A stretch of 64,000 nucleotides of DNA from Pseudomonadota bacterium. GTDB lineage: Bacteria; Pseudomonadota; Gammaproteobacteria; Burkholderiales; Rhodocyclaceae. The stretch's first letter is position 1, and each line of letters opens with the position of its first letter. The stretch lies in contig JAFEFC010000012.1 of NCBI GenBank assembly GCA_018240785.1, positions 1 to 64,000 of the forward strand, written 5' to 3'. A program made the translations under genes and the position numbers. Shown here piece after piece: positions 9,496 to 29,566 of this stretch. The notes beneath the pieces are model-generated. The model did no database searches, had not been told where the DNA came from, and saw nothing but the letters and a program-made list of their open reading frames with translations.

Positions 9496-9846
9496 ATGGG
9501 ACGCCTCACCACTCACGTACTCGACACCGCCAGGGGAACCCCCGGCGTCGGCATCACCGTGACGGTCTACCGCCTCGACGGCGAGCGCCGTGTAGTCGCC
9601 AGTACGGTCACCAACCACGACGGCCGCTGCGACAAGCCCCTGCTCGAGGGCGCCGCGCTCGAGACCGGCAAATATGAAATCATCTTCGCGGCAGGAGACT
9701 ATTTCCGCGCCCAAGGGCTGAACCTGCCCGAACCGCCTTTCGTCGATGAAGTCGCGCTGCGTTTCGGCATCGCCAACACCGACCAGCATTACCACGTGCC
9801 GCTGCTCGTCTCGCCGTGGAGCTACTCCACCTACCGCGGCAGCTAA
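9496..9846 (+). CDS. uraH: 5-Hydroxyisourate hydrolase (transthyretin-like)
   Basis: Hydrolyses 5-hydroxyisourate to OHCU, the second step of urate breakdown. The 116-residue protein has all family marks: THVLDT (His7) at the N-terminus, the NHDGRC arginine loop, QHYHVPLLVSPW and the C-terminal tetrapeptide YRGS. There is no signal peptide, so it is cytoplasmic. AAGGAG lies just upstream of the ATG. It is the first gene of the operon, and puuD follows after 30 bases. Confidence 0.95.
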   Translation: MGRLTTHVLDTARGTPGVGITVTVYRLDGERRVVASTVTNHDGRCDKPLLEGAALETGKYEIIFAAGDYFRAQGLNLPEPPFVDEVALRFGIANTDQHYHVPLLVSPWSYSTYRGS

Positions 9847-9876
9847 CCCCGGCTTCACGGACAGAGAGACAAGCAA

Positions 9877-11070
9877 ATGGAAACCTACCTGCTCGACTGG
9901 GCCAATCTCCTGGTCCGCTGGCTGCACCTGATCGCAGGCATTGCCTGGATCGGCGCATCCTTCTACTTCGTCATGCTGGACAACTCCCTGAAAGCGCCGA
10001 AGAACCCGAATGATGCGAAGCGCGGCGTGTTCGGCGAACTCTGGGCGGTGCACGGTGGCGGCTTCTACCACAGCCAGAAATACCTCACCGGCCCGAAGGG
10101 CGAGCCGCTGACCGAGGACCTCCATTGGTCCAAGTGGGAAGCCTACACGACCTGGTTGTCCGGCATGGGCATGCTCGCCATCGTGTACTGGATCGGCGCC
10201 TCCAGCTACCTGATCGACAGCAACGTCATGGCCCTGACGCCGGCGGCAGCAGTCGGCATCTCCATCGCCTTCCTGATCAGCGGCTGGGTGTTTTACGACA
10301 TCCTGTGTCGCAACATGATCGGCAAGGACGGCCTGCTCGCCGCGATCGTCTTCGTCTTCGTGATGGCAGCGAATTACCTGCTGCACCACGTCTTCTCGGC
10401 CCGCGGAGCGTACATCCACGTCGGTGCGATGCTCGGCACGATGATGGCAGCCAACGTGTTCTTCCACATCATCCCTGGCCAGAAGAAGATGGTCGAGCAG
10501 ATCCGCCGCGGGGAGGCCGTTGACTCCATGCCCGGCATCGTCGGCAAGCAACGCTCGGTTCACAACACCTACTTCACGCTCCCGGTGCTGTTCATCATGA
10601 TCAGCAACCACTACCCGATGACCTACGCCAACAAGCACGGCTGGCTGATCCTCGGCGTGGTGATGCTTGCCGGCGTGCTGATCCGCCAGTTCTTCGTTCT
10701 GCGCCATCGCGGCCAGGTCAAGACTTGGCTGCCGGCGGCCGGCGCCGCCCTGCTCGCCCTGCTGGTGGTCGTGATGGCGCCGAAACAGGTCGATGCCGGT
10801 GGCGAAAAGGTCAGCTTTGCGACCGTGAAGAGCACCCTGGAGCAGCGCTGCGTCACCTGTCACGCCGCGCAGCCCAAGCAGGAAGGTTTCGCCCAGCCGC
10901 CCAAGGGCGTGATGCTGGAGACGCCCGAGCAGATCGCGCAGCACGCCGCCAAGATCGCGGAGACGGTCGCCAGTGGCTACATGCCGCTCGGCAACCTGAC
11001 CCAGATCACCGACAAGGAGCGCGAGGCCATCGCAATCTGGTACGCCCAGGGCGCCCGCCTCAAGGATTGA
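9877..11070 (+). CDS. puuD: Membrane-bound urate hydroxylase with C-terminal cytochrome c domain, PuuD
   Basis: Oxidises urate to 5-hydroxyisourate in the inner membrane, replacing soluble oxygen-dependent uricase. Residues 1-300 carry about eight to nine membrane helices of the urate oxidase N-terminal domain, with many conserved histidines (HLIAGIAWIG, HGGGFYHSQKY, YLLHHVF, FFHIIPGQKKM). Residues about 310-397 are a periplasmic cytochrome c domain with heme motif CVTCH (325-329) and probable axial Met369 (SGYMPLG). Electrons therefore probably go to the respiratory chain rather than to H2O2. Length 397 is normal for the family. Confidence 0.94.
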   Translation: METYLLDWANLLVRWLHLIAGIAWIGASFYFVMLDNSLKAPKNPNDAKRGVFGELWAVHGGGFYHSQKYLTGPKGEPLTEDLHWSKWEAYTTWLSGMGMLAIVYWIGASSYLIDSNVMALTPAAAVGISIAFLISGWVFYDILCRNMIGKDGLLAAIVFVFVMAANYLLHHVFSARGAYIHVGAMLGTMMAANVFFHIIPGQKKMVEQIRRGEAVDSMPGIVGKQRSVHNTYFTLPVLFIMISNHYPMTYANKHGWLILGVVMLAGVLIRQFFVLRHRGQVKTWLPAAGAALLALLVVVMAPKQVDAGGEKVSFATVKSTLEQRCVTCHAAQPKQEGFAQPPKGVMLETPEQIAQHAAKIAETVASGYMPLGNLTQITDKEREAIAIWYAQGARLKD

Positions 11071-11103
11071 AACCGCATACGAACACGGTTGGAAGACATC
11101 ACC

Positions 11104-11652
11104 ATGACTCAGAATACCGCCACACCCGATCGCACCGAGGCCGCGCTGGCCGAACTCTCCCGACTGACGCAGCACGATTTCGTCGCCCGGCTCGAGGGTA
11201 TCTTCGAACATTCCCCCTGGATCGCCGAGCGCACCTGGAACGCCGGCCCCTTCCACACCATCGATGCGCTGCACGCCGCCATGTGCCTGGTCGTCGATGC
11301 CGCGTGCAAGAATGAGCAGCTTGGCCTGATCAGCGCCCACCCGGAGCTCGCGGGCAAGGAAGCAGAGGCAGGCACGCTGACGACCGCCTCCACCGGCGAG
11401 CAGCGCGGCGCCGGTCTCGACCAGTGCAGCAAGGAAGAACTGCAGCGCCTGCGCGATCTGAACAAGGCGTACCGTGAGCGCTTCGGCTTTCCCTTCGTGG
11501 TCGCGGTCAAGGGCCTCACCCGCCACCAGATCATGGATCGTGTCGAAGCTCGGCTTGCCAACGACCGCGACACTGAATTCCGTACCTGCCTGAACGAGAT
11601 CAGCAAGATCGCGCGCTTCCGGCTGGACGCCATCTTCGGCGCGAGCGTGTGA
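11104..11652 (+). CDS. uraD: OHCU decarboxylase
   Basis: Decarboxylates 2-oxo-4-hydroxy-4-carboxy-5-ureidoimidazoline to S-allantoin. The protein has 182 residues; the catalytic histidine motif AHPELAGKEA, the STGEQRGAGLD loop and FPFVVAVKGLTRHQI are all conserved. The ATG at 11104 has GGAAG upstream, and a start 15 bases earlier has no ribosome binding site. It follows puuD by 33 bases. Confidence 0.95.
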   Translation: MTQNTATPDRTEAALAELSRLTQHDFVARLEGIFEHSPWIAERTWNAGPFHTIDALHAAMCLVVDAACKNEQLGLISAHPELAGKEAEAGTLTTASTGEQRGAGLDQCSKEELQRLRDLNKAYRERFGFPFVVAVKGLTRHQIMDRVEARLANDRDTEFRTCLNEISKIARFRLDAIFGASV

Positions 11653-11703
11653 CTCTCCGCTCTGCTGCGACACTTCCCCCACCGCCTTTTCCGGATCGAC
11701 ACC

Positions 11704-12636
11704 ATGACTTCGAACCAGGCCTACCCCCGCGACCTGATCGGCTACGGCAGGAATCCGCCGCATGCCAACTGGCCCGGCCGCGCCCGCGTGGCCGTGCAGT
11801 TCGTGCTCAACTACGAGGAAGGCGGCGAGAACTGCGTGCTGCACGGTGATGCCGGCAGCGAGCAGTTCCTGTCCGAACTGTTCAACGCTGCCAGCTACCC
11901 GGACCGCCACCTGTCGATGGAAGGCATCTACGAGTACGGCTCGCGCGTGGGCGTGTGGCGCTTCCTGCGCGAGTTCGAGCGCCGCGGCCTGCCGATGACG
12001 ATCTTCGGCGTGTCGATGGCGCTCGAGCGCCATCCCGAGCTCACCGCCGCATTCAAGGAGCTCGGCCACGAGATCGCCTGCCACGGCTGGCGCTGGATCC
12101 ATTATCAGAACACGCCCGAAGAGGTCGAGCGCGAGCACATGCGCATCGGCATGGAGATCATCGAGCACCTGACCGGCGAGCGCGCACTGGGCTGGTACAC
12201 CGGCCGCGACTCGCCGAACACCCGGCGCCTGGTGGCCGACTACGGCGGCTTCCTGTACGACTCGGACTACTACGGCGACGACCTGCCGTTCTGGACCGAG
12301 GTGCAGAAGACCAGTGGCGAGACCGTGCCGCACCTCATCGTGCCCTACACGCTCGACACCAACGACATGCGCTTCGCGCTGCCGCAGGGCTTCTCGCACG
12401 GCGACGAGTTCTTCGAGTACCTGCGCGATGCCTTCGACGTGATGTACGCCGAGGGCGAGGAGCGCCCGGCGATGATGTCGATCGGCATGCACTGCCGCCT
12501 GCTCGGCCGGCCGGGCCGCTTCAAGGCGCTGCAGCGCTTCCTCGACCACATCGAGAAGCACGACCGCGTGTGGGTGTGCCGTCGCGTCGACGTCGCCCGC
12601 CACTGGATCGAGCACCACCCCTACAACGCGAAATAA
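11704..12636 (+). CDS. puuE: Allantoinase PuuE (polysaccharide deacetylase family)
   Basis: Converts allantoin to allantoate. At 310 residues it is a full-length member of the cofactor-independent PuuE group within the NodB/polysaccharide deacetylase fold, unrelated to the amidohydrolase-type AllB. Diagnostic stretches include PRDLIGYGRNPPHANWPG, the EGIYEYGSRVGVWR loop, GHEIACHGWRWIHYQ and GWYTGRDSPNTRRL. The N-terminal ~160 residues occur almost unchanged in a truncated copy at 24892-25386. No clear Shine-Dalgarno precedes the ATG. Confidence 0.94.
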   Translation: MTSNQAYPRDLIGYGRNPPHANWPGRARVAVQFVLNYEEGGENCVLHGDAGSEQFLSELFNAASYPDRHLSMEGIYEYGSRVGVWRFLREFERRGLPMTIFGVSMALERHPELTAAFKELGHEIACHGWRWIHYQNTPEEVEREHMRIGMEIIEHLTGERALGWYTGRDSPNTRRLVADYGGFLYDSDYYGDDLPFWTEVQKTSGETVPHLIVPYTLDTNDMRFALPQGFSHGDEFFEYLRDAFDVMYAEGEERPAMMSIGMHCRLLGRPGRFKALQRFLDHIEKHDRVWVCRRVDVARHWIEHHPYNAK

Positions 12637-12708
12637 GTTTTCAGCGCAGGCGGGCCCGCAAGACTGCGGGATCCGCCTCAAACCCCCCGAACCCAAAGGA
12701 GAACCCCC

Positions 12709-13758
12709 ATGGCCAGCCACACTCCCGGCGCCCCCGTCTTCGCCCCGCCCGCCGACCTGCCCGACTGGGCCCTGCGCTCGGTCGACCTCGCCAACCCCCG
12801 CCTGGGCGCCAAGGCGCTCGCCGCGTCCGACGACTTCTTCGCCGAAGTCTCGCGCATGCTCAACCCCGAGCCGGCCCAGTTCGTCCCCGGCAAGTTCGAC
12901 ACCAACGGCAAGTGGATGGACGGCTGGGAATCCCGCCGCAAGCGCGTCGCCGGCCATGACTGGGCGCTCGTCAAGCTCGGCGTCAAGGGTGTGATCCGCG
13001 GCTTCGACGTCGACACCTCCCACTTCACCGGCAACTACCCGCCGGCCGTCTCGATCGAGGCCTGCGTCTCCGAGACCGACGACGTGGAAGCGCTCAAGGC
13101 CGCGGCCTGGACCGAGATCCTCCCGGCCACCGCGATGGGCCCCAACAGCCACCACATCGTCGAGTGCGCCAGCACCGAGGCGTGGACCCACCTGCGCGTG
13201 AACATGTATCCCGACGGCGGCATCGCCCGTCTGCGCGTCTATGGCCGCCCGGTCGGCACGCTCGCCGCCAAGGCCGCCTCGGGCGAGCTGGTCGACCTGG
13301 TCGCGATGGAGAACGGCGGCCGCGCAGTGTCGTGGAACGACGCCAGCTTCGGCTCCTCCGCCTCCGCCCTGCTGCTGCCGGGCCGTGGCATGAACATGGG
13401 CGACGGCTGGGAAACCCGCCGCCGCCGCGAACCCGGCAACGACTGGTGCGTGCTCGAACTCGGCGCCCCCGGCACGGTCGACAAGATCGAGGTCGACACC
13501 GCCTTCTTCAAGGGCAACTACCCCGACCGCTGCTCGGTGCAGGCCGCCTACGTGACCGGCGGCACCGACCGCTCCATCACCACCCAGTCCATGTTCTGGC
13601 AGACCCTGCTGCCCGAGCAGAAGCTCGAGATGGACGCGATCCACACCTTCACGGAACAGGTCGCCAAGCTCGGACCCATCACCCACGTCCGCTTCAACAT
13701 CTTCCCCGACGGCGGCGTCTCGCGACTGCGCCTGTGGGGCAAGGTCGAAGCCAAGTAA
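12709..13758 (+). CDS. alc: Allantoicase
   Basis: Hydrolyses allantoate to ureidoglycolate and urea. The 349 residues form two homologous allantoicase repeats: the first around [22 protein letters not shown], the second around [29 protein letters not shown] good ribosome binding site (AAAGGAG) precedes the start. The second repeat (from residue 211) is found again, fused to a permease fragment, at 25941-26360. Confidence 0.95.
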
Positions 13759-13854
13759 GCAGCGCCCCCGCCGCGCCGACATGCGCTGCCGCCCGGCCAG
13801 TCCGGCGCCAGCGCATGCGGGGGCGGCGAGCCCCACAATCTACGGGAGCACCCC

Positions 13855-14367
13855 ATGTCCGCGAAAACCGCCATCACGCTCGACGTGCTGCCGCTGACCC
13901 GCGAAGCCTTCGCACCCTACGGCGACGTCATCGAGGCCAGCGACGCCGCCCGGCACTTCACGATCAACGCCGGCAATACCGAGCGCTACCACGACCTGGC
14001 CAACATCGAGCCCGGCCCCGAGGGCCGCGTCATCGTCTCCATCTTCCGCGGCCAGCCGCGCAGCCTGCCCTTCACTGTGCAGATGATGGAACGACACCCG
14101 CTTGCCTCGCAGGCCTTCATCCCGATGTCGGGCAAGCCTTACCTCGTCGTCGTCGCCCCTGCCGGCGACACGCCCGCGACTGAAGATCTCAAGGTCTTCC
14201 TCGCGCGCGGCGACCAGGGCGTCAACTACGCCACCGGCGTCTGGCACCACCCCCTGCTCGCGCTCGACGGCGTCTGCGACTTCCTCGTCGTCGATCGCAG
14301 CGGGCCCAACCCCAATTGTGACGAAGTCCAGCTCGACACTCACGGCGTGATCAACGCCGCGGCTTGA
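13855..14367 (+). CDS. allA: Ureidoglycolate lyase AllA, first copy
   Basis: Splits ureidoglycolate into glyoxylate and urea. The 170-residue cupin-like protein is full length; [40 protein letters not shown], and the metal-site region [21 protein letters not shown] are typical. It completes the urate-to-glyoxylate pathway started by puuD. A close paralogue lies at 26361-26864. Confidence 0.94.
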
Positions 14368-14407
14368 ATCCGCCGCGCGGCGCGCGGCACAATGCGACGA
14401 GCGTGAA

Positions 14408-14429
14408 GGGGCTGCCTGCGGGCAGCCCC
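14408..14429. terminator. Stem-loop after allA
   Basis: Perfect 9-bp inverted repeat (14408-14416 with 14421-14429) with a 4-base loop, 40 bases after the allA stop codon. No T-run follows, so it may attenuate transcription or protect the 3' end rather than stop transcription fully. It separates the core pathway genes from the aldolase gene. Confidence 0.4.
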
Positions 14430-14496
14430 TGCGTCATTCAGGGCCCGGCAAGATCGCCAGACCCATACCGCCATCCGAAATCGATCCACCGACATC

Positions 14497-15261
14497 ATGC
14501 TGCACGCCGATCCCTACGCCCACCGACCACCGCAATTCGGCGCCGAGGAATGGCGCGCCCGTGTCGATCTCGCCGCCTGCTACCGCCTCGCCGCGCAACG
14601 CGGCTGGGGTGACCTGATCTACACTCACATTTCGCTGCGCCTGCCCGGCCACGACGATGCCTTCCTGATCAACCCCTTTGGTGCAACCTTCGACGAAATC
14701 AGCGCCTCCAGCCTGCTGACGATCGATTTCAACGGCCGCGTCACCGACGGCACCGGCCGCATCGCCAATCCCAGCGGCTTCGCCATCCACGGCGCCGTCC
14801 ATCGCGCCCGTGCCGATGCGCACTGCGTGATCCACCTGCACACCGATGCGGGGATCGCCGTCTCGGCGCTCGCGGACGGCCTGCTCCCGCTGTCGCAGCA
14901 CGCCATGCGCTTCTGGCGCGACATCGCCTACCACGATTACCAGGGTCTTGCCTTCGCGGCCGACGAACAGGCGCAGTTCGTCACCGAACTGGGCAAGCGG
15001 CGGGCGATGATCCTGCACAACCACGGCACCCTGACCTGCGGCCGGACGGTGGCCGAAGCCTTCGTGCTGATGGATACGCTGGAGAAGGCCTGCCGCACCC
15101 AGTTGCTGGCGATGGCGGCGGGCACCCTGCACATCCCGCCCGCCGAGGTGGCGGACCGCACCCACGCCCAACTGACCGCCGACCCGGAGCCCGAAGGCGC
15201 ACTGGAATGGCCTGCGCTGCTGCGCGGCCTGTTGCGGCTCGATCCCGCCTTCGCACGTTGA
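14497..15261 (+). CDS. Class II aldolase/adducin family protein
   Basis: A 254-residue protein with the class II aldolase fold. The zinc-binding histidines are visible in VIHLHTDAGIAVSAL and in LHNHGTLTCG, and the phosphate/substrate loop region YTHISLRLPGHDDAFLINPFG is conserved. These enzymes act on small hydroxy-carbonyl substrates. It lies between allA and the NCS2 permease, so a role in using a purine-derived C2-C4 compound such as glyoxylate is conceivable but unproven. A hairpin separates it from allA. Confidence 0.8.
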   Translation: MLHADPYAHRPPQFGAEEWRARVDLAACYRLAAQRGWGDLIYTHISLRLPGHDDAFLINPFGATFDEISASSLLTIDFNGRVTDGTGRIANPSGFAIHGAVHRARADAHCVIHLHTDAGIAVSALADGLLPLSQHAMRFWRDIAYHDYQGLAFAADEQAQFVTELGKRRAMILHNHGTLTCGRTVAEAFVLMDTLEKACRTQLLAMAAGTLHIPPAEVADRTHAQLTADPEPEGALEWPALLRGLLRLDPAFAR

Positions 15262-15399
15262 TCCGCACCGACGCCTGTCGGCCACATATCGAGGGCCCGG
15301 TTGGCCGGCACGCCCGAACTTGCAACCCTCGTCCCCGGGATGAAAGCAACCTGGAATTCCTTCTCCCCAACCGTCTCTTCCACCTGACAGGAGCCCACC

Positions 15400-15588
15400 A
15401 TGCCCACCATGCACATTGAACTGTTCGAAGGTCGCAGCCCGGAAAAGAAGCGTGAACTGGTCGAAGCCCTCACCCGCGAGACTTGCCGCGTGCTCGAATG
15501 CGAGCCTGCCGCGGTCGACATCGTCCTCATCGACGTCAAGCGCGAGAACTGGGCCACCGGCGGAGTCATGTGGTCCGAGCGAAGCTAG
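15400..15588 (+). CDS. 4-Oxalocrotonate tautomerase family protein
   Basis: A 62-residue tautomerase. Proline follows the initiator Met (MPTMHIELFEGRS), giving the catalytic Pro1 after Met removal. The helix SPEKKRELVEALTRETCRVL and the RENWATGG loop match the 4-OT family and include the Arg11- and Arg39-type positions. CAGGAG lies upstream. Substrate unknown; family members isomerise unsaturated 2-oxoacids. It follows the class II aldolase by 138 bases. Confidence 0.82.
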   Translation: MPTMHIELFEGRSPEKKRELVEALTRETCRVLECEPAAVDIVLIDVKRENWATGGVMWSERS

Positions 15589-15665
15589 CCTGGAAGGCAC
15601 CCTCCCGGGTGCGCATCGCAGGGAGGGATTCGTAGCGCTCCAATATGATTTCCGTGATGCGTTCT

Positions 15666-15708
15666 ATAAGTCCATAAACGTTTTCATATCCGTGCGTCCC
15701 CCTAGACT
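15666..15708 (+). promoter_or_regulatory. Promoter/operator region of the NCS2 permease gene
   Basis: AT-rich block ATAAGTCCATA (15666-15676) followed by an AACGTT-centred imperfect dyad and TTTTCATATCC (15681-15691), then CCTAGACTG with a -10-like TAGACT at 15703-15708. The ATAAGTC.ATA half-site resembles the uraH operator (9396-9416), and TTTTC.TATCC plus CCTAGACTG recur before the second NCS2 gene (27655-27665 and 27707-27715). A shared LysR-type regulator is the simplest reading. Confidence 0.45.
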
Positions 15709-15744
15709 GGAATCCGACAGTCCAAAACAACGAGGAGACGCACG

Positions 15745-17148
15745 ATGTCCGCGACAAACCACACGCCCGACCTGCAGGCGGTCGACCCGGTCAATGAATG
15801 CCCGCCGGGGGGCCGCCTCTTTACCCTGGCCCTGCAGCACGTGCTGGTGATGTATGCCGGCGCGATCGCGGTGCCGCTGATCGTTGGCGGCGCGCTCAAG
15901 CTGCCCAAGGATCAGATCGCATTGCTGATCAACTCCGACCTGCTGTGCTGCGGCCTCGTTACCATCATCCAGGCGCTGGGGGTCGGCCGCTTCGGCATCC
16001 GCCTGCCGATCATGATGGGCGTCACGTTCGCGGCGGTCGGCCCGATGGTGGCGATGGCGACCAACCCGGCGCTCGGCATCAACGCCATCCTCGGCTCGGG
16101 CATCGCCGCCGGCCTGTTCGGCATCTTCTTCGCGCCGCTGGTGTCACGCGCGCTGCCGCTGTTCCCTCCCATCGTGACCGGCTCGATCATCTCCGTGATC
16201 GGCATCTCGCTGATGCCGGTCGCCATCAACTGGTCCGCCGGCGGCCAGCCGAGGATCCGCGACGCGGCCACCGGCCAGTTCATCGACAACCCGGCCTACG
16301 GCTCGCTCGAGTATCTGGCGATCGCCGGCATCGTGCTGCTGATCGTGCTCGCCATCACCCGCTACGGCCGCGGCTTCATGTCCAACGTCGCGGTGCTGCT
16401 GGGCATGGCGGTGGGTTTCGCGATCTCCATCGCGATGGGCAAGGTCAGCTTCGACGGCCTGGCCGACATGCCGTGGATCTCGCTGGTGACCCCGATGCAC
16501 TTCGGCATGCCGATCTTCGACCTCGTCTCCATCGCCACCATGTGCCTGGTCATGGTTGTCGTCATGGTCGAGTCGTTGGGCATGTTCCTCGCGCTCGGCG
16601 AGCTCACCGGCCGCCAGCTCACACGCGAGGATCTCACCCGCGGCCTGCGCACCGACGGGCTCGGCACGCTGATCGGCGGTTTCCTGAACACCTTTCCGCA
16701 CACCTCGTTCTCGCAGAACGTCGGCCTGGTGGGTGTCACCGGCGTCAAGAGCCGCTGGGTATGCGTCGTTGGTGGCGCCATCCTGATGGCCTTCGGTCTG
16801 TTCCCCAAGATGGCGCTGATCATTGCTTCGGTACCGCAGTACGTGCTTGGCGGCGCAGGCCTGGTGATGTTCGGCATGGTCGCAGCCACCGGTATCAAGA
16901 TCCTCCTCTCCGCCGACCTGCGCACCAACCGCTTCAACCTTTACATCGTGGCGCTGTCTGTGGGCGCCGGGATGATCCCGATGGTGGCACCGAAGTTCTT
17001 CCAGCAGATGCCGCACGCGCTGGAGCCGCTGCTGCATAGCGGCATCCTGCTGGCCGCGATCACCGCGGTAGGCCTGAATCTGTTCCTTAACGGCACGCGC
17101 CGCAACGCCGGCACCGACGACCTCACGCAGTCTGCGCACGCACACTGA
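15745..17148 (+). CDS. NCS2-family purine (urate/xanthine) permease
   Basis: Full-length 467-residue nucleobase:cation symporter-2. It has 14 predicted helices and the signature stretches VLVMYAGAIAVPLIVGGAL, the ESLGMFLALGELTGR motif of helix 8 and the NTFPHTSFSQNVGLV motif of helix 10. Similarity is to the urate/xanthine branch (UacT, PucJ/PucK-like), fitting its position behind the urate operon. A ribosome binding site (CGAGGAG) precedes the ATG. A shortened relative is at 27901-28668. Confidence 0.92.
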   Translation: MSATNHTPDLQAVDPVNECPPGGRLFTLALQHVLVMYAGAIAVPLIVGGALKLPKDQIALLINSDLLCCGLVTIIQALGVGRFGIRLPIMMGVTFAAVGPMVAMATNPALGINAILGSGIAAGLFGIFFAPLVSRALPLFPPIVTGSIISVIGISLMPVAINWSAGGQPRIRDAATGQFIDNPAYGSLEYLAIAGIVLLIVLAITRYGRGFMSNVAVLLGMAVGFAISIAMGKVSFDGLADMPWISLVTPMHFGMPIFDLVSIATMCLVMVVVMVESLGMFLALGELTGRQLTREDLTRGLRTDGLGTLIGGFLNTFPHTSFSQNVGLVGVTGVKSRWVCVVGGAILMAFGLFPKMALIIASVPQYVLGGAGLVMFGMVAATGIKILLSADLRTNRFNLYIVALSVGAGMIPMVAPKFFQQMPHALEPLLHSGILLAAITAVGLNLFLNGTRRNAGTDDLTQSAHAH

Positions 17149-17207: not shown

Positions 17208-17357
17208 TACACAGTCGCATACCGGGTTTGCGGGCATCACGCATCCGGAAATGACTGGCTGCTCGCCACCGGCGCCAGCGCCCGTGCCCTGGTGCTCGCG
17301 TTGCTGGAGATGGAAATCGGGCTGAATGTGGTGTTCGAGGATATCGTGCCGGCTGGA

Positions 17358-17837
17358 TCAGTCCGGGACGAGGGCGCGACGCCGAAGGGTCGACTCCAGC
17401 GTATGGATCGATTTCTTCCTCGGAGAAGCAACTCCGCAAATCGAACGCCTTGATTCCGTACCAGTTCCAGCTTTTCGCAGTTGTCGGCCCAGATGCCGAG
17501 GATGAAGCCGAGCAGGCTGAAGCTGGCCGCGGGAAAAGCTCACCGTGTTCCACACCGTCTCGAAAGCATCGGTGGTGAGTTCCTGCGGCACCAGGCCGAT
17601 CATCGCGCGCGCGGCACGATCGTCACGGATGATGTCGCAGCCGCCCACCGTCACCCGCCCGGCGCTCGGATTGACCAGGTCGCAGACGACGCTGATCGGC
17701 GTCGTCTTGCCCGCCCCGTTGGGACCGAGCAGTGCGGAGACCTCGCCCTGACGGATGTCGAGTTCAAAGACCTTCAGCGCAGCAAAGCCCGAGGCGCAGG
17801 TCTTGGACAGACCCGAAATGGAGATGACCGCTTGCAT
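17358..17837 (-). pseudogene. Collapsed ABC exporter: YadG-like ATPase N-terminus joined to a YadH-like permease fragment
   Basis: The first ~110 residues are a normal ABC ATPase start with Walker [10 protein letters not shown], the [11 protein letters not shown] segment and [25 protein letters not shown]. Directly after SFSRG the frame changes. In another frame (about 17450-17530) the DNA encodes [19 protein letters not shown], a typical ABC-2 permease stretch. The signature motif, Walker B and most of the permease are gone. A deletion of well over 1 kb must have joined the two genes out of frame. Not functional. Confidence 0.75.
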
Positions 17838-17873: not shown

Positions 17874-18345
17874 CTACAGGCTCGCCGCCCAGGGGACCGC
17901 GTCGAAATGCAGCGCCATGCCCTCGCGGCGCCAGACCACGCCCTCGTGCTGCACGGCGAGCCACCAGGTCTGCGTGCCCGAGTCCGACCGTGGCTGGGCG
18001 AAGGCGTCCGGGGTCAACACCGCCACGCACCAGGCCGGTTCGGGATCGCGCACCGAACGGTAGACGATGGCGCCGATGCCGCCATCCCGCGCCACGCGCG
18101 CAAAGGCCTGCGTGGCGCCGCAAGCGACCGGATCGGTCCAGCGGGCCGCATCGTCCGCGAAGGGCGGCTGGCGCAGATCCACCGCCTGCGTCGCCAGGCC
18201 CGCACGGAAGGCGGTATGGGCCACCGGTTCGAGCCGCTCCAGATCCACCGCGTCGCGCGGGAAGCGCCAGTAGCCCAGTTCCGCGCAGGCGGTGCGCACC
18301 CGCTCGGCACCGTAGAACACGCCGGGGTCGGTAGCCGCGCGGTGC
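17874..18345 (-). pseudogene. RES-domain toxin remnant, N-terminus lost
   Basis: The reading frame ending at 17874 encodes the C-terminal two thirds of a RES-family NAD+-targeting toxin: PGVFYGAERVRTACAELGYWRF, then HTAFRAGLATQAVDLRQPPF, and GGIGAIVYRSVRDPEPAWCVAVL. The N-terminal part with the conserved arginine is missing, and no start codon with a ribosome binding site precedes it. It joins the antitoxin gene at about 18335-18345 in a different frame. Family knowledge: RES toxins degrade NAD+ and are paired with Xre/ParS-type antitoxins, as here. Confidence 0.7.
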
Positions 18346-23843: not shown

Positions 23844-24746
23844 TCATCGATCCGCCCCAGCCCGGCGGGACTGCCACAGGGCCATCACGCTGATCAGCGC
23901 CAGCGCTGTTCCGATCAGCAGCATACCGGTCAGTTCCACCGCGCCCGGGCGCTCGCCGAGTTCCAGCCACCCGGCCAGCGCGCCGATCATCGGGACGCCC
24001 AGCGTGGACAATCCGGCCAGGCCGGTGGAAAGGTGCTGCAGCACGTATAGCCACAGCAACCAAGCCAGGCCGGTCGCCAGCACCGCATTGAAGGCCAGCG
24101 CGCCGAAGAAGTACGGCGTGGGATCGATCGGCCGCGACGGATGCAGCACTGCGATCACGCACAGCGCAAGCGCGCCGAACAGCATCTGCCAGGCGGTCAG
24201 GGACAGCAGGTCGAACACGTGGTCGCGGCGCATGCGCTTGGCCAGCACCGCCGAGGCCGCCCAGGTGAGGCCGCCGGCGATGGCCAGCAGGTTGCTGAAC
24301 AGGCTCCCGCGCATCGCCCACGGCTCCAGCACCAGCACGAGGCCGAGGCCTGCGACCGCAATCGCGAACCATTGCGACCCTTTTATCCGTTCTCCCGGCA
24401 GCCACCAGGCCATCGGCAAGACCCAGAACGGCATCGTGTATACGAGCACTGCGGTCTTGCCCGCGCCGCCCGCCACCAAAGCCCACTGGATCAGTGCAGT
24501 GAAGGCTGCCGTCTGCAGCACGCCGAGCAGCGCCACCTGACGCAAGGCCGTTATCTTCATCGGCCGGCGCAGGATCAACAGCACCAGGAACAGGGTGGCG
24601 GCTCCCAGCAAGGTGCGGATGGCGGAGAAGTCGAACGGATCGACATACTGGATGACCTGCTTCATCACCACCCAGTTGTAGCCCCAGATCAGGGCCAAAA
24701 GCGCCAGCGCGACGAACGCGAGGCGAGACTTGCCTATCGCAGGCAT
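23844..24746 (-). CDS. EamA/DMT-family transporter
   Basis: About 300 residues and ten membrane helices in two EamA repeats. LALIWGYNWVVMK, then FSAIRTLLGAATLFLVLLIL and GLAGLSTLGVPMIGALAGWLELGE are typical of YdcZ/RhaT-like DMT exporters. The start ATG at 24746 has GGAG six bases upstream; an upstream in-frame start at 24818 is not supported. Substrate unknown. It lies immediately downstream of the remains of the second purine cluster on the same strand. Confidence 0.84.
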   Translation of the reverse strand: MPAIGKSRLAFVALALLALIWGYNWVVMKQVIQYVDPFDFSAIRTLLGAATLFLVLLILRRPMKITALRQVALLGVLQTAAFTALIQWALVAGGAGKTAVLVYTMPFWVLPMAWWLPGERIKGSQWFAIAVAGLGLVLVLEPWAMRGSLFSNLLAIAGGLTWAASAVLAKRMRRDHVFDLLSLTAWQMLFGALALCVIAVLHPSRPIDPTPYFFGALAFNAVLATGLAWLLWLYVLQHLSTGLAGLSTLGVPMIGALAGWLELGERPGAVELTGMLLIGTALALISVMALWQSRRAGADR

Positions 24747-24882
24747 CGGATCTCCAAATTGAAACGCCGCGCCTTTTCCCAAAACGTGCCTTGCCATCCG
24801 CCCTCGCGCGGCCGACATTGCGGGCGAGCAGGTCCGCCATCGCGACCGAGACGGCCACGTTGTCGATCAGAGGCACGGTCAT
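24747..24882 (-). pseudogene. Possible fragment of an Asp/Glu/hydantoin racemase
   Basis: After the TAA that ends the truncated puuE, the same frame continues TVPLIDNVAVSVAMADLLAR. This resembles the C-terminal VPVIDGVAAAVKLAE segment of hydantoin/allantoin racemases, which would suit a purine cluster. The stretch is short and the match is from memory, so this is a weak call. Nothing else is seen between 24747 and the EamA start. Confidence 0.3.
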
Positions 24883-24891
24883 CCGGTCGGA

Positions 24892-25386
24892 TTAACCGCC
24901 AGGAACCGCAGCGCCGGTGAGGCGCTCGATGATCTCCATGCCGATGCGCATGTGCTCGCGCTCGACCTCTTCAGGCGTGTTCTGGTAGTGGATCCAGCGC
25001 CAGCCGTGGCAGGCGATCTCGTGGCCGAGCTCCTTGAACGCTGCGGTGAGCTCGGGATGGCGCTCGAGCGCCATCGACACGCCGAAGATCGTCATCGGCA
25101 GGCGGCGGCGCTCGAACTCGCGCAGGAAGCGCCACACGCCGACGCGCGAGCCGTACTCGTAGATGCCTTCCATCGACAGGTGGCGCTCGGGGTAGCTGGC
25201 GGCGTTGAACAGTTCGGACAGGAACTGCTCGCTGCCGGCGTCGCCGTGCAGCACGCAGTTCTCGCCGCCCTCCTCGTAGTTGAGCACGAACTGCACCGCG
25301 ACGCGGGCGCGGCCGGGCCAGTTGGCCTGCGGCGGATTCCTGCCGTAGCCGACCAGGTCGCGCGGGTAGTTTGATGAAGCATTCAT
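24892..25386 (-). pseudogene. puuE: Truncated second allantoinase gene (puuE N-terminal half)
   Basis: ATG 25386, with GGAGA upstream, starts a protein nearly identical to PuuE at 11704-12636 over residues 1 to about 158 ([19 protein letters not shown] through IGMEIIERLTG). It then diverges into AAVPGG and stops. The second half, including the GWYTGRDSPNTRRL region, is missing, so activity is unlikely. It faces away from the chimeric permease-allantoicase ORF, and the two starts overlap. The very high similarity to the intact copy indicates a recent duplication or transfer from a close relative. Confidence 0.85.
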
Positions 25387-26360
25387 TGCGGGTCTCCATT
25401 GGAGGCATTCACGCGACCGACCTGCGCACACGGTCAGCCGCTGAGGGTACGATCAGTTCTCGAGGAAGCGCTTACTTCTGGGGCCTGCCGGAAAACTTCC
25501 TTGCCTTCTCGATCGTCAGCGTCGTCATCACCGCTGGCAGGATCCCGGTTTTCGGTCACATGATCACCGACCCGATCGAGACTGTCAGCAAGATCGACAA
25601 CACGATGGCAACGGTCCTGGGCGCCTTCACCTTCGTCACCGCCACGATCGGCATCAACATCGTCGCCAACTTCGTGTCGCCGGCCTTCGACTTCTCCAAC
25701 GTCGCACCGAAGCACATCAGCTTCCGCACCGGGGGCTTCATCGCCGCGGTCGGCCCCATCTTCATCACGCCGTGGAACCTGTTCAACTCACCGGAAGTGA
25801 TCCTCTACACCCTCGACATGCTCGCCGCCTTCATCGGCCCGCTGTTCGGCATCCTGCTGGTGCACTTTTACTTCGTGCGCAACATGAAGATCGTCGCCGA
25901 GGACCTCTACAGGGACAAGCCGGGCGGCGCCTACTGGTACGACGCCAGCTTCGGCTCCTCGGCCGCCGCCCTGCTGCTGCCGGGCCGCGGCATGAACATG
26001 GGCGACGGCTGGGAAACCCGCCGCCGCCGCGAACCGGGCAACGACTGGTGCGTGATCGAACTGGGCGCCCCCGGCACCGTCGAGAAGATCGAGGTCGATA
26101 CCGCCTTCTTCAAGGGCAACTACCCCGACCGCTGCTCGGTGCAGGCCGCCCATGTGACCGGCGGCACCGACCGCTCCATCACCACCCAGTCGATGTTCTG
26201 GCAGACCCTGCTGCCCGAGCAGAAGCTCGAGATGGACGCGATCCACACCTTCACCGAGCAGGTGGCCAAGCTGGGCCCCATCACCCACGTCCGCTTCAAC
26301 ATCTTCCCCGATGGCGGTGTCTCGCGACTGCGCCTGTGGGGCAAGGTCGAGGCCAAGTAA
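25371..26360 (+). CDS. In-frame chimera: NCS1 (allantoin-type) permease fragment fused to the C-terminal repeat of allantoicase
   Basis: One open frame joins two unrelated proteins. From about 25466 to 25940 it encodes an internal part of an NCS1 nucleobase/allantoin permease ([80 protein letters not shown]). At 25941 it switches to [19 protein letters not shown] and continues to the end as allantoicase residues 211-349, complete second repeat. The permease has lost roughly its N-terminal two thirds and its end. Codons before 25466 show no homology and overlap the truncated puuE. Probably a deletion product; whether it is translated is unknown. Confidence 0.8.
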
Positions 26361-26864
26361 ATGGGCGCCCTCCAGCTCGAGGTGCAGCCGCTCACCCGCG
26401 AAGCCTTCGCCCCCTTCGGCGAAGTCATCGAGGCCAGCGATGCGGCGAAGCACTTCACCATCAACGCCGGCAACACCGAGCGGTACCACGACCTGGCCAA
26501 CATCGAGCCCGGCCCCGACGGGCGCGTGATCGTCTCCATCTTCCGCGGCCAGCCGCGGTCCCTGCCCTTCACGGTGCAGATGATGGAGCGCCATCCGCTC
26601 GCGTCTCAGGCCTTCATTCCAATGTCGGGCAGGCCCTATCTCGTCGTCGCCCCGGCCGGCGAGCCGCCCGCAGCCGAAGACCTCAAGGTCTTCCTCGCCC
26701 GCGGCGACCAGGGCGTCAATTACGCCACCGGTGTCTGGCACCATCCGCTGCTCGCGCTCGAGGGCGTGTGCGACTTCCTCGTCGTCGATCGCAGCGGGCC
26801 GGGGCACAACTGCAATGAGGTGCACCTGAGCCGCCACGGGATCGTTGTTGGACTTGAAGACTGA
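26361..26864 (+). CDS. allA: Ureidoglycolate lyase AllA, second copy
   Basis: A complete 167-residue AllA, closely similar to the copy at 13855-14367 ([58 protein letters not shown]) but with a different C-terminus. Its ATG directly follows the stop codon of the chimera without a gap, so translation would depend on coupling. It appears intact, yet its upstream partner enzymes in this cluster are broken, so it is probably redundant. Confidence 0.92.
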
Positions 26865-27002
26865 ATGCCCGAGCCCTCATCGAGGCAACGGCAAGACACA
26901 ACATATGCACTTCCTGATTTGTGTCATAAGACCTGCCTACACGCACCGGGGTCACCAAGATCTAAATTCCGACCGGAAACCAATGCACCAAAGGAGTGCG
27001 CA

Positions 27003-27518
27003 ATGCTGCTCGGTCTGTCGCTGTTCTATGTCGGAGCGGTGCTGATTCTCAACGGCGTGTGGATGCTGGGCCGGATCGCGGATCGCGAGATCACGATTAT
27101 TAACCTGTTCACCGGCGGGCTGACCTTGCTCATATCGCTCAAGCTCGCTCTCGGCGAGGGCGCCGACGCGGCATCTATCAAGGGCGCGGCGCTGTCCCTG
27201 CTGTTTTCATTCACCTATCTCTGGGTGGCGTTCAATCGTCTGACCGGCGCCGACGGCCGTGGCCTGGGGTGGTTCAGCCTCTTCGTCGCCGTCACGGCAA
27301 TACCGGTTGCGATCGATTCCCTGCGCATGGCATCCACCTCCTGGGACTGGTGGCTGGGGCTATCGTGGGCCGCATGGGCCGTGCTGTGGCTGCTCTTCTT
27401 CGTACTGCTGGCCCTGCAGAAACCAATCGCCCGCCTGACCGCCGGCGTCGCCATCAGCCAGGGCATCTTCACCGGCTGGCTGCCTGGCTACCTGCTGCTG
27501 ACCGGAGCGCTGGCCTGA
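27003..27518 (+). CDS. AmiS/UreI-family urea or short-chain amide channel
   Basis: A 171-residue inner-membrane protein with six helices: MLLGLSLFYVGAVLILNGVW, then INLFTGGLTLLISLKLAL and LLFSFTYLWVAFNRLTG, ending TGWLPGYLLLTGALA. This matches the AmiS/UreI family, which passes urea or amides. A strong ribosome binding site (AAAGGAG) fixes the start at 27003. In this setting it would handle the two ureas released per allantoate; no urease genes are in the window. It is one of the few intact genes of the second cluster. Confidence 0.88.
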   Translation: MLLGLSLFYVGAVLILNGVWMLGRIADREITIINLFTGGLTLLISLKLALGEGADAASIKGAALSLLFSFTYLWVAFNRLTGADGRGLGWFSLFVAVTAIPVAIDSLRMASTSWDWWLGLSWAAWAVLWLLFFVLLALQKPIARLTAGVAISQGIFTGWLPGYLLLTGALA

Positions 27519-27900
27519 CTTCCGCGCCCCCAAACAATCCAGTCTTCCCTCCGCAAGGCCGTGCCGTTCCAACGAAGACGCGGCCTTGCCGCGTACACAG
27601 GAACCAGATCGAAAGAAACAAAGGCTATGAAATATTGCGTCGCAACAATATAAATTTTCTTATCCCAGCTATTGGCCCAGCTCGCGGCATCACCAAAGTC
27701 GATTCTCCTAGACTGCGCCCCCGGGTCAGCGCAGCGCGATGCGGGCACGAGCCGCCGCACAACACCGCAACGGGAAACCCCCGAGCGGACAGAACACAGG
27801 GAGCCTGCTGCCTGACCCCTTGCAGAGCGCGTTCATTACGCGCACCCAACCAGGCCGGATTGACCAACGAGAGACAGTCGAAAAGGGCAAGGAAACACCC
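27519..27900 (+). promoter_or_regulatory. 382-bp intergenic region with dyads and candidate promoter before the second NCS2 gene
   Basis: No gene is seen. A perfect dyad TTGCG-T-CGCAA (27635-27645) sits inside an ATATTG/CAATAT inverted repeat (27632-27637, 27646-27651), followed by TTTTCTTATCC (27655-27665). CCTAGACTG with -10-like TAGACT (27709-27714) matches the element before the first NCS2 gene. Here the TTTTC.TATCC block lies 43 bases from the -10, against 11 in the first cluster. Confidence 0.45.
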
Positions 27901-28668
27901 ATGTCCGAGCACGCACTGGAAGGCGCCCCCCCGAGGTCCATCCCGATGGCCAACAACCCGAACTACAGCGCGCTCGACACCATGGCGGTGGCGGCGTTCG
28001 TACGGGTCATGATCCTGCTCCTCGTCCGCTATGGCCGCGGCTTCCTCGCCAACATCGCGGTGCTGCTCGGCATCATCGTCGGCTGCGTCGTCGCAGTCGT
28101 GATGGGCAAGATGCATTTCGACAAGGTGGCGAAAGCGCACTGGTTCGACGTCGTCACACCCTTCGCCTTCGGCATGCCCACCTTCGATCCGGTGATGGTC
28201 CTGACCATGACGCTGGTCATGGTGGTGGTGGTGATCGAGTCGGTCGGCATGTTCCTGGCACTGGGCGAGATCACCGACAAGCGCATTTCCCGTACCGAGC
28301 TCGCAGCCGGCCTGCGCACCGACGGCCTGGGTACTCTGCTCGGCGGCATCTTCAACACCTTCCGCTACACCAGCCTCTCGCAGAACGTGGGCCTGGCGGC
28401 GGCGACCGGCATCCGCATTCCCGCCAACGTCGATTTCCGCGGCAACCGCAACAACCTGTACATCGTCGCGCTGTCGATCGGTTTCGGCCTGGTGCCGCTG
28501 GTCGCGCCGCGCTGGATGCAGCACATGGCGCACAGCCTGCACCCGCTGCTCGAATCCGGAATCCTGCTGACCGCCATCGCCGCTGTCCTGCTGAACCTGT
28601 ATTTCAACGGCGGCAAGGAAGACAAGGCCGGCGCCATCGAGGCGGCCAAGGCAGCCGAAGCTCACTGA
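27901..28668 (+). CDS. Internally deleted NCS2-family permease
   Basis: A 255-residue open frame, against 467 for the intact relative at 15745-17148. After an apparently normal start (AAGGAAA before ATG; MSEHALEGAPP), the first ~190-200 residues, including the early helices, are missing and the sequence resumes at LLLVRYGRGFLANIAVLLG. ESVGMFLALGEITDKR and SLSQNVGL are retained. Directly after SQNVGL about 60 residues are lost in frame, resuming at AAATGIRI/VDFRGNRNNLYIVALS. It cannot form a complete transporter. Both deletions keep the frame. Confidence 0.82.
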   Translation: MSEHALEGAPPRSIPMANNPNYSALDTMAVAAFVRVMILLLVRYGRGFLANIAVLLGIIVGCVVAVVMGKMHFDKVAKAHWFDVVTPFAFGMPTFDPVMVLTMTLVMVVVVIESVGMFLALGEITDKRISRTELAAGLRTDGLGTLLGGIFNTFRYTSLSQNVGLAAATGIRIPANVDFRGNRNNLYIVALSIGFGLVPLVAPRWMQHMAHSLHPLLESGILLTAIAAVLLNLYFNGGKEDKAGAIEAAKAAEAH

Positions 28669-28699: not shown

Positions 28700-29566
28700 A
28701 TGAACGCACGACTCACCACCATCGCCGCAGCCGTCGCCCTCGCCACGCTTGCCGCGCCCGCCGCCCAGGCCGCGACCTGGAGCGACACCTTCATCGGCTA
28801 CCGCTATAGCGGCGAATTCCGGGAACCGAACAACCGCAACGAAGTCGAGAAGAACGTGCTGCAATTCACGCATTCGAGCGGCTATTCGATCGGACAGAAC
28901 TTCGTGAACCTGGACGTCCTGCAGTCGGATTCGAATGACCCGGCAAACCGCAGCAAGGACGGCGCCACCGAGTTCTACTTGACCTACCGGCACCAGATCC
29001 ACCTGGGCAAGGCCTTCGACAAGAATCTCGCCTTTGGTCCGGTCAAGGAGGTTGCCCTCACCGCCGGTTTCGACCTCAACAGCAAGAACACCGAGTTCGC
29101 GCCGCGCAAGCGCCTGCTGGTCGTCGGCCCCACGCTGAAGTTCGATGTGCCGGGCTTCCTCGACGTCAGCCTGCTGTACGGCAAGGAGTGGAACCACTGC
29201 GGCCTGATCGACAGGCTCTGCCCCAACCACGACATCGCCTTCGATCCGCAATGGATCGTCAGCGTCGCCTGGGGCATCCCCTTCCAGGCCGGTCCGGTGC
29301 CGTTGAAATTCCAGGGTTTCCTGAACTACAACAGCGAGAAGGGCAAGGACTACGCCGGCGTGAAGACCGAGGCAGAGACGCTGATGCGCACCTCGCTGAT
29401 GGCGGACGTCGGGCAGATGGCGACAGGCAAGAAGGACGTGTTCTTCATGGGGGTGGGTTACGAACTTTGGCTGAACAAGTTCGGCAACCACGCCTTCGCC
29501 AACGGTCGCGAGAAGCCGGGCATCAACACCTACGCCCCGACCTTGCAGATGGAATGGCACTTCTGA
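28700..29566 (+). CDS. Tsx-like nucleoside-specific outer-membrane channel
   Basis: 288 residues with a clear signal peptide (AAAVALATLAAPAAQA) and a beta-rich body starting ATWSDTFIGYRYSGEFREP. It ends in WHF, the aromatic C-terminus recognised by the BAM complex. The pattern fits nucleoside-specific channel-forming (Tsx-like) porins of beta-proteobacteria. It would bring nucleosides or purines across the outer membrane for the nearby permeases. It starts 31 bases after the shortened NCS2 gene and is intact; a terminator hairpin follows. Confidence 0.8.
   Translation: MNARLTTIAAAVALATLAAPAAQAATWSDTFIGYRYSGEFREPNNRNEVEKNVLQFTHSSGYSIGQNFVNLDVLQSDSNDPANRSKDGATEFYLTYRHQIHLGKAFDKNLAFGPVKEVALTAGFDLNSKNTEFAPRKRLLVVGPTLKFDVPGFLDVSLLYGKEWNHCGLIDRLCPNHDIAFDPQWIVSVAWGIPFQAGPVPLKFQGFLNYNSEKGKDYAGVKTEAETLMRTSLMADVGQMATGKKDVFFMGVGYELWLNKFGNHAFANGREKPGINTYAPTLQMEWHF

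Follow-up and report, generated by a model that had tools for sequence, protein, structure and literature searches.

A second allantoin-use locus in decay beside a complete purine-degradation cluster in a member of the Rhodocyclaceae

Bacterial clusters for the use of urate and allantoin are known in which uraH, puuD, uraD, puuE, alc and allA are combined with permeases of the NCS2 and NCS1 families. Partial gene sets have also been described: in the passages of PMC10117892 that deal with them, uric-acid modules on Acinetobacter baumannii plasmids have missing or disrupted genes (including puuE, uacT and hpxO) and contain tsx, which in some modules is replaced by an insertion sequence. Here we analyse a stretch of 64,000 nucleotides (the window), positions 1-64000 of contig C3 (JAFEFC010000012.1) in a 58-contig draft genome of 4.7 Mb (GCA_018240785.1, Rhodocyclaceae), which carries a complete cluster (cluster A) and a second locus (locus B). 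The genes of cluster A and of the ancestral locus B fall in the described families; however, locus B differs from the described clusters in that, judging from its sequence, its genes for allantoinase, allantoicase and permease are all incomplete by now. With the A. baumannii modules, as that source presents them, it shares the partial gene set, while those modules are plasmid-borne. A further comparison concerns Mhp1, the hydantoin/allantoin permease of the NCS1 family, which one piece of locus B resembles, although only about 155 residues from the middle are left. We conclude that locus B is very probably the relic of an older, separate locus for allantoin and hydantoin use, reduced by deletions after it had become redundant with cluster A.

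Locus B was compared with a set of 29 genomes of the genus (Thauera), the window's own included (28 others), and with wider samples of 121 genomes of the family and 399 of the order. Genomes are given as G numbers; G007, the sister genome (Thauera sp. 2A1), was the reference for colinearity and for the NCS2 permease of locus B (NCS2B). The features of locus B are the following:

23844-24818, minus strand: EamA-family exporter, left border of the locus here and in relatives; its extreme N-terminus overlaps with the racemase scrap
24785-24890, minus strand: scrap of an Asp/Glu/hydantoin racemase of the G007 type, near the C-terminal end (about residues 231-275 of 290)
24889-24911, minus strand: probable N-terminal scrap of the same racemase, motif R-(I/F)-L-x-V-N-P, joined out of frame
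24912-25386, minus strand: puuE-B, the first ~158 codons and then TAA in frame (alignment, TIGR03212)
25451-25473, minus strand: last codons and stop of an NCS1 permease gene (NCS1b), 23 of 23 bases identical to G016
25464-25937, plus strand: middle fragment of an allantoin-permease-like NCS1 permease (NCS1'), PF02133 positions 239-402 of 440
25935-26360, plus strand: C-terminal half of allantoicase (alc-B), residues 209-349, in frame with NCS1'
26361-26864, plus strand: allA-B, ureidoglycolate lyase, full length (profile match)
26997-27518, plus strand: AmiS/UreI-family amide/urea channel, intact (profile match; function predicted)
27901-28668, plus strand: NCS2B permease remnant, net frame open, with deletions of 581, 150 and 1 bp relative to G007
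28700-29566, plus strand: Tsx-like outer-membrane porin, intact

The profile of puuE-B covers positions 1-155 of 297 in TIGR03212 with 244 bits, below the cut-off of 424.6 (the cluster A copy reaches 511 bits), and that of alc-B covers positions 191-324 of 324 in TIGR02961 with 189.5 bits, below the cut-off of 277.9. NCS2B, whose protein lacks about 190 residues near the start and an inner block of 50 residues with respect to G007, stays below the cut-off of TIGR00801 (158 against 291.8 bits) and passes the looser one of PF00860 (128 against 27 bits). All three are truncated relative to their intact orthologues, as in a pseudogene locus. The fragment NCS1' and the allantoicase half form one open reading frame (ORF 25371-26360). 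The allA-B product matches PF04115 over positions 3-158 of 162 (200.3 bits, cut-off 23) and the AmiS channel matches PF02293 over positions 2-165 of 166 (206.8 bits, cut-off 25), while the porin scores 21.4 bits with PF03502, below the curated cut-off of 27.2, and is named here Tsx-like only. An earlier note, made from the sequence alone, had already listed the truncated puuE, the allantoicase half, the second allA, the channel and the shortened NCS2, and alignments, Pfam and NCBIfam agree with it on each of them, as well as on a second cluster in decay that has lost its redundant genes and kept channel, allA and porin; absent from it were the fusion of NCS1' with the allantoicase half, the racemase scraps and the NCS1b tail.

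As regards substitutes, puuE and alc have a copy in cluster A, and the genome contains two other NCS2 copies besides NCS2B. A protein search of the window's genome (expectation value, E, <=0.001) gave no second match for AmiS, and a second porin match was also absent from this genome. From its family, AmiS would pass urea or amides; use of urea is probable because the alpha subunit of urease is encoded elsewhere in the genome, on contig C23.

Matches to AmiS are present in 19 of the 29 genus genomes, the window included, and matches to allantoicase in 18, fragments counted. The most complete locus B on one contig is that of G009 (C1), with the order EamA(-) NCS1a(-) puuE(-) NCS1b(-) racemase(-) GntR(-) alc(+) allA(+) AmiS(+) NCS2B(+); it occupies positions 3078228-3083653, about 29 kb from the G009 cluster A (3047538-3049542; puuE starting at 3047538 and alc at 3048496), and puuE and alc are complete in both. 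Its NCS1a (L045:2628-4102) is frameshifted near residue 155, so that even this locus has begun to decay; as our NCS1a reference from G009 is the single-frame translation of this gene and holds a stop, matches elsewhere to its second half, which are read in a shifted frame, were not used. In G016 the locus lies on two contigs whose junction we infer, C128 (EamA-puuE-NCS1b-racemase-GntR-GntR2-DctA-alc-allA) and C18 (allA-AmiS-NCS2B-porin). G001 and G022 have GntR2-DctA-alc-allA-AmiS-NCS2B, without puuE between EamA and GntR2, and in G023 and G027 the G007-type racemase is located between puuE and NCS1a-EamA. Two complete alc genes are present in G004 and also in G001.

The earlier note had considered locus B rearranged, with puuE on the opposite strand. 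This does not hold, as the B loci of relatives also have a minus-strand puuE that diverges from alc-allA (G009 L045, G016 L196 and G004 L044, the last at a contig edge). The layout is therefore ancestral and the losses are colinear deletions; an inversion of puuE was rejected, and none is needed because all pieces of locus B except NCS1' follow the gene order of the relatives. In the sister genome the locus is eroded in its own way, with a scrap of alc (residues 311-349), a GntR scrap, an NCS1'-like scrap and an intact AmiS-NCS2B-porin part; no allA match was found in it. In G021, NCS2B is flanked by AmiS and porin and carries two different in-frame deletions. Among the genomes compared, no relative was found to have the broken layout of the window maintained by purifying selection. 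In G008, the interval between EamA and AmiS holds a 29-residue match to the N-terminus of allantoicase (C1:1050356-1050442; 72%, E 6e-6), perhaps another separate erosion of locus B.

The only piece without a counterpart in this gene order, NCS1', aligns with Mhp1 (PDB 2jln) over residues 288-404 (E 5e-13) and matches NCBIfam allantoin permease models below their cut-offs. At the protein level, matches were obtained in 12 of the other 28 genus genomes, the best of them at 45% identity. Among the 399 order genomes there were 30 with a match, counting the window, and apart from the window the best was that in G435 (77%), from another family of the order. In that genome the neighbours of the NCS1'-like gene are GntR, racemase, puuE, alc and allA, and the NCS1 gene is divergent from GntR. 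A DNA search (E<=0.001) gave matches in 26 of the 121 family genomes, again including the window, and beyond the window itself these were only 25-86 bases long. An intact NCS1' ahead of alc was not seen in any genus genome examined; as far as those genomes show, NCS1' would be foreign to the genus.

On these comparisons, the predecessor of locus B may have consisted of a left part EamA(-) NCS1a(-) racemase(-) puuE(-) NCS1b(-) racemase(-) GntR(-) and a right part NCS1'(+) alc(+) allA(+) AmiS(+) NCS2B(+) porin(+). Since cluster A supplies the enzymes from uricase to ureidoglycolate and another NCS2, the puuE, alc and NCS2 of locus B would have become redundant, and this redundancy may have been the cause of decay. 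Redundant genes would then have been cut by deletions between short repeats, possibly through slippage or end-joining.

Six or seven colinear deletion junctions can be recognized in locus B of the window, three of them at short shared sequences. In NCS2B, 581 bp are gone between two copies of CCATCCCG (8 bp), with a 1-bp deletion just upstream, and another 150 bp between imperfect repeats of 24 bp; the NCS1'/allantoicase junction is at a shared ACGAC. Compared with G027, 559 bp appear to be missing from the racemase, with puuE joined to the racemase start; the N-terminal scrap on which this depends is short and less certain, as it lies within a 39-bp match (82%) to G027 L191 (296-334). At another junction the NCS1b tail meets the middle of NCS1', and the gene order in relatives suggests that racemase and GntR were lost along with it. 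Among the junctions within or between coding pieces that can be placed on one strand, here and in relatives, 5 of 8 are in frame by themselves (NCS1'/alc, the 150 bp of NCS2B, two in the NCS2B of G021 and one in the cluster A-type NCS2, NCS2A, of G006) and 6 of 8 net; the out-of-frame ones are the 581 bp of NCS2B (in frame net), the internal one of the racemase and puuE/racemase, and the last two become one if the N-terminal scrap is a chance match. This count leaves out EamA/racemase, which is outside the EamA frame proper, and NCS1b/NCS1', which are on opposite strands.

We then evaluated the codon phase of repeats. In the intact NCS2B of G007, identical 8-mers separated by 30 bp or more form 132 pairs, of which 121 agree in codon phase; among pairs of 24-mers with at least 18 matches, all 54 do so (these pairs overlap and are not independent). 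The same-phase share of 8-mers is 87-94% in NCS2A, alc, puuE and puuD and 74% in the NYN gene. In controls with 50 shuffles for each of five genes (NYN not included), 81-91% remained in phase when codons were shuffled and 32-34% when bases were shuffled. Since the codon-shuffled controls keep the share, codon usage at a third-position G+C content of 0.89-0.95 in these genes is sufficient to account for it. In-frame remnants are then expected from deletions between repeats even without selection; the observed junctions fit this expectation loosely. The NCS1'-alc and NCS2B frames would thus be open mainly because deletions between such repeats tend to be multiples of three. It could also be proposed that, besides decay, the frames were kept open against transcriptional polarity on allA and porin: the ATG of allA-B abuts the TAA of the fused frame (TAAATG), and the porin starts 31 bases past the NCS2B stop, the same as in G007. 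Such an effect is compatible with a decayed separate locus, but it is unnecessary given the codon-phase statistics and we consider it unlikely.

To evaluate selection, nonsynonymous (N) and synonymous (S) changes were counted. On the window branch the NCS2B pieces have 9N:9S against 31N:105S over nine genes, among them AmiS (1N:5S) and the porin (3N:22S), with a one-sided Fisher p=0.018, or p=0.021 without NCS2A, whose best hits in some loci belong to the NCS2B paralogue. Changes were polarised by 1 (puuD) to 15 (AmiS) outgroup loci and ambiguous ones were left out. The broken NCS2B of G021 has 13N:3S private changes, compared with 16N:32S in its AmiS and porin (p=0.001) and with 10N:12S in four intact NCS2B lineages, G007, G016, G001 and G015 (p=0.028). 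From these data relaxed selection is clear for NCS2B of G021. For that of the window it is only suggested, by the branch count and not by the stricter count of private changes given below, which would be in line with recent breaks. Constraint seems to act on AmiS and the porin, and allA-B, with 6N:13S private changes, may still work.

Several results weigh against a decayed separate locus reduced by phase-biased deletions. The private changes of the window's NCS2B (4N:4S) do not differ from those of the four intact lineages (p=0.57), nor does its branch (9:9) from the sister branch (1:3, p=0.37); in the puuE-B half the private changes are 7N:6S, compared with 8N:17S for four intact copies, of which one is covered over 60 codons only (p=0.17), and in the alc-B half they are 1N:2S. 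By itself the 581-bp deletion shifts the frame, which is open only together with the neighbouring 1-bp deletion, and the two racemase/puuE junctions are out of frame. Moreover, no single genome shows the full predecessor, and the position of NCS1'(+) before alc is based on the window, on the scrap of 43 residues (44% identity) at the corresponding place in G007 and on G435.

The shortened frames could instead be functional mini-proteins, an NCS1'-allantoicase chimera and a small NCS2, kept by selection. That the frames are open, that in-frame NCS2 deletions occur also in G021 (two) and G006 (one, with a C-terminal part that looks constrained), and that private changes in the window's NCS2B are like those of intact lineages would agree with this. 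However, the excess of nonsynonymous changes in G021 and on the window branch speaks against it, in-frame deletions are accounted for by the codon phase that repeats tend to share, with no need for selection, and the breakpoints vary among genomes, so that we judge this explanation very unlikely. In G006, a single-contig genome, NCS2A (L194:12402-13433) has lost about 120 codons in frame, leaving a 343-residue frame open, with private changes of 6N:8S over the retained parts.

The comparison between the two loci bears on the proposal of the earlier note that locus B was recently duplicated or acquired, here taken as a recent segmental copy of cluster A that decayed afterwards. Cluster A spans 9496-17148 and is complete, with a gene for an aldolase-family protein also present (Pfam, NCBIfam):

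9496-9846, plus strand: uraH, hydroxyisourate hydrolase (TIGR02962)
9877-11070, plus strand: puuD-type urate oxidase, membrane protein with cytochrome domain (Urate_ox_N)
11089-11652, plus strand: uraD, OHCU decarboxylase (TIGR03164)
11704-12636, plus strand: puuE (TIGR03212)
12709-13758, plus strand: allantoicase (TIGR02961)
13855-14367, plus strand: allA (ureidoglycolate lyase models)
15745-17148, plus strand: NCS2 purine permease (NCS2A), full length (PF00860 positions 3-388 of 389)

Five matches between the loci were found, with E from 0 to 4e-17 (two further short ones at 4e-4 were ignored). The puuE piece (24912-25369 against 12178-11721, inverted) is 95.6% identical over 458 bp without gaps, the allantoicase half (25935-26360 against 13333-13758) 95.1% over 426 bp and allA (26366-26800 against 13869-14306) 88.1% over 438 columns, as the earlier note had anticipated from their high similarity; the same claim fails for NCS2B, which is only 68-69% identical to the NCS2 of cluster A, in two stretches, and is therefore a different paralogue.

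The identity of 95-96% for the puuE and alc halves would support duplication, and A-B copying does occur in the genus: in G001, alc and allA hardly differ between cluster A and locus B (L036/L037), which points to recent gene conversion between the two loci. However, AmiS, porin, NCS1 and racemase are in locus B and not in cluster A, the NCS2 paralogues differ, and relatives carry an intact locus B beside cluster A. High identity of puuE and alc is moreover genus-wide (the G009 puuE is 94.5% identical to that of window locus B and its EamA flank 82%), and the puuE-B half is about as near to cluster A of the sister (94.8%) and locus B of G009 as to cluster A of the window. In trees of puuE (5 rows), the C-terminal half of alc (9 rows) and allA (10 rows), which resolve little (starred inner branches 0 of 2, 1 of 6 and 3 of 7), locus B is not nested with its own cluster A for puuE and alc, at weak support; the puuE-B half falls outside a group of window A, sister A and G009 B (84/84, drawn open). 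A recent duplication is thus highly improbable.

It is very unlikely that short-read contigs were misjoined through the A/B repeats, since, although the genome is a 58-contig draft and contigs of the relatives G018, G014, G019 and G027 break off within puuE or alc, just where the two loci resemble each other, both NCS2B deletions are within sequence unique to locus B, A and B pieces differ by 4-12%, the order of junctions is colinear with relatives and the sister's locus B is separately eroded.

The window and G007 are colinear over the 64 kb, in a block of 17.3 kb (95.2%), one of 35.6 kb (95.8%) and five smaller ones, all at 93-96% identity except a 106-bp scrap at 89.6%, with large gaps only at 17.25-18.34 and 24.78-28.41 kb. 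In the first gap, 564 bp of the window (17252-17815), missing from G007, include part of an ABC-transporter ATPase fragment (PF00005, ORF 17358-17837, minus strand), and at 18334-18341 about 335 bp of G007 are missing in the window, with 8 bp that align to either side, as in another short-repeat junction. Within cluster A, allA and the aldolase gene (14001-15200) are 77-90% identical to G007 in steps of 200 bp, with flanks at 95-99%, which suggests allele replacement through recombination. The porin has a synonymous difference to G007 of 0.243, against 0.06-0.11 for most compared genes, and is perhaps also a replaced allele.

What we describe is ordinary gene decay of a redundant locus, and the phase-locking of deletions is its one wider point. 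We would propose tentatively, as possible rather than probable, that decay in GC-rich bacteria is phase-locked, since repeats of a length that can mediate deletions mostly share codon phase, and that this erosion by in-frame steps regularly leaves open frames, chimeric or shortened, which are annotated as genes and from which new proteins could arise; the NCS1'-alc fusion itself may be translated and membrane-bound. Among the titles listed in searches of the open-licence PMC literature none deals with the idea, which may nonetheless have been published. In a GC-rich genome, finding the reading frame of a shortened or fused gene open says little about whether that gene is functional, as deletions at short repeats by default tend to keep the codon phase. 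Finally, the two sister genomes are caught at different stages of the decay of locus B, and they offer a gene-by-gene view of how a redundant catabolic locus is dismantled, while its members without a substitute are kept.

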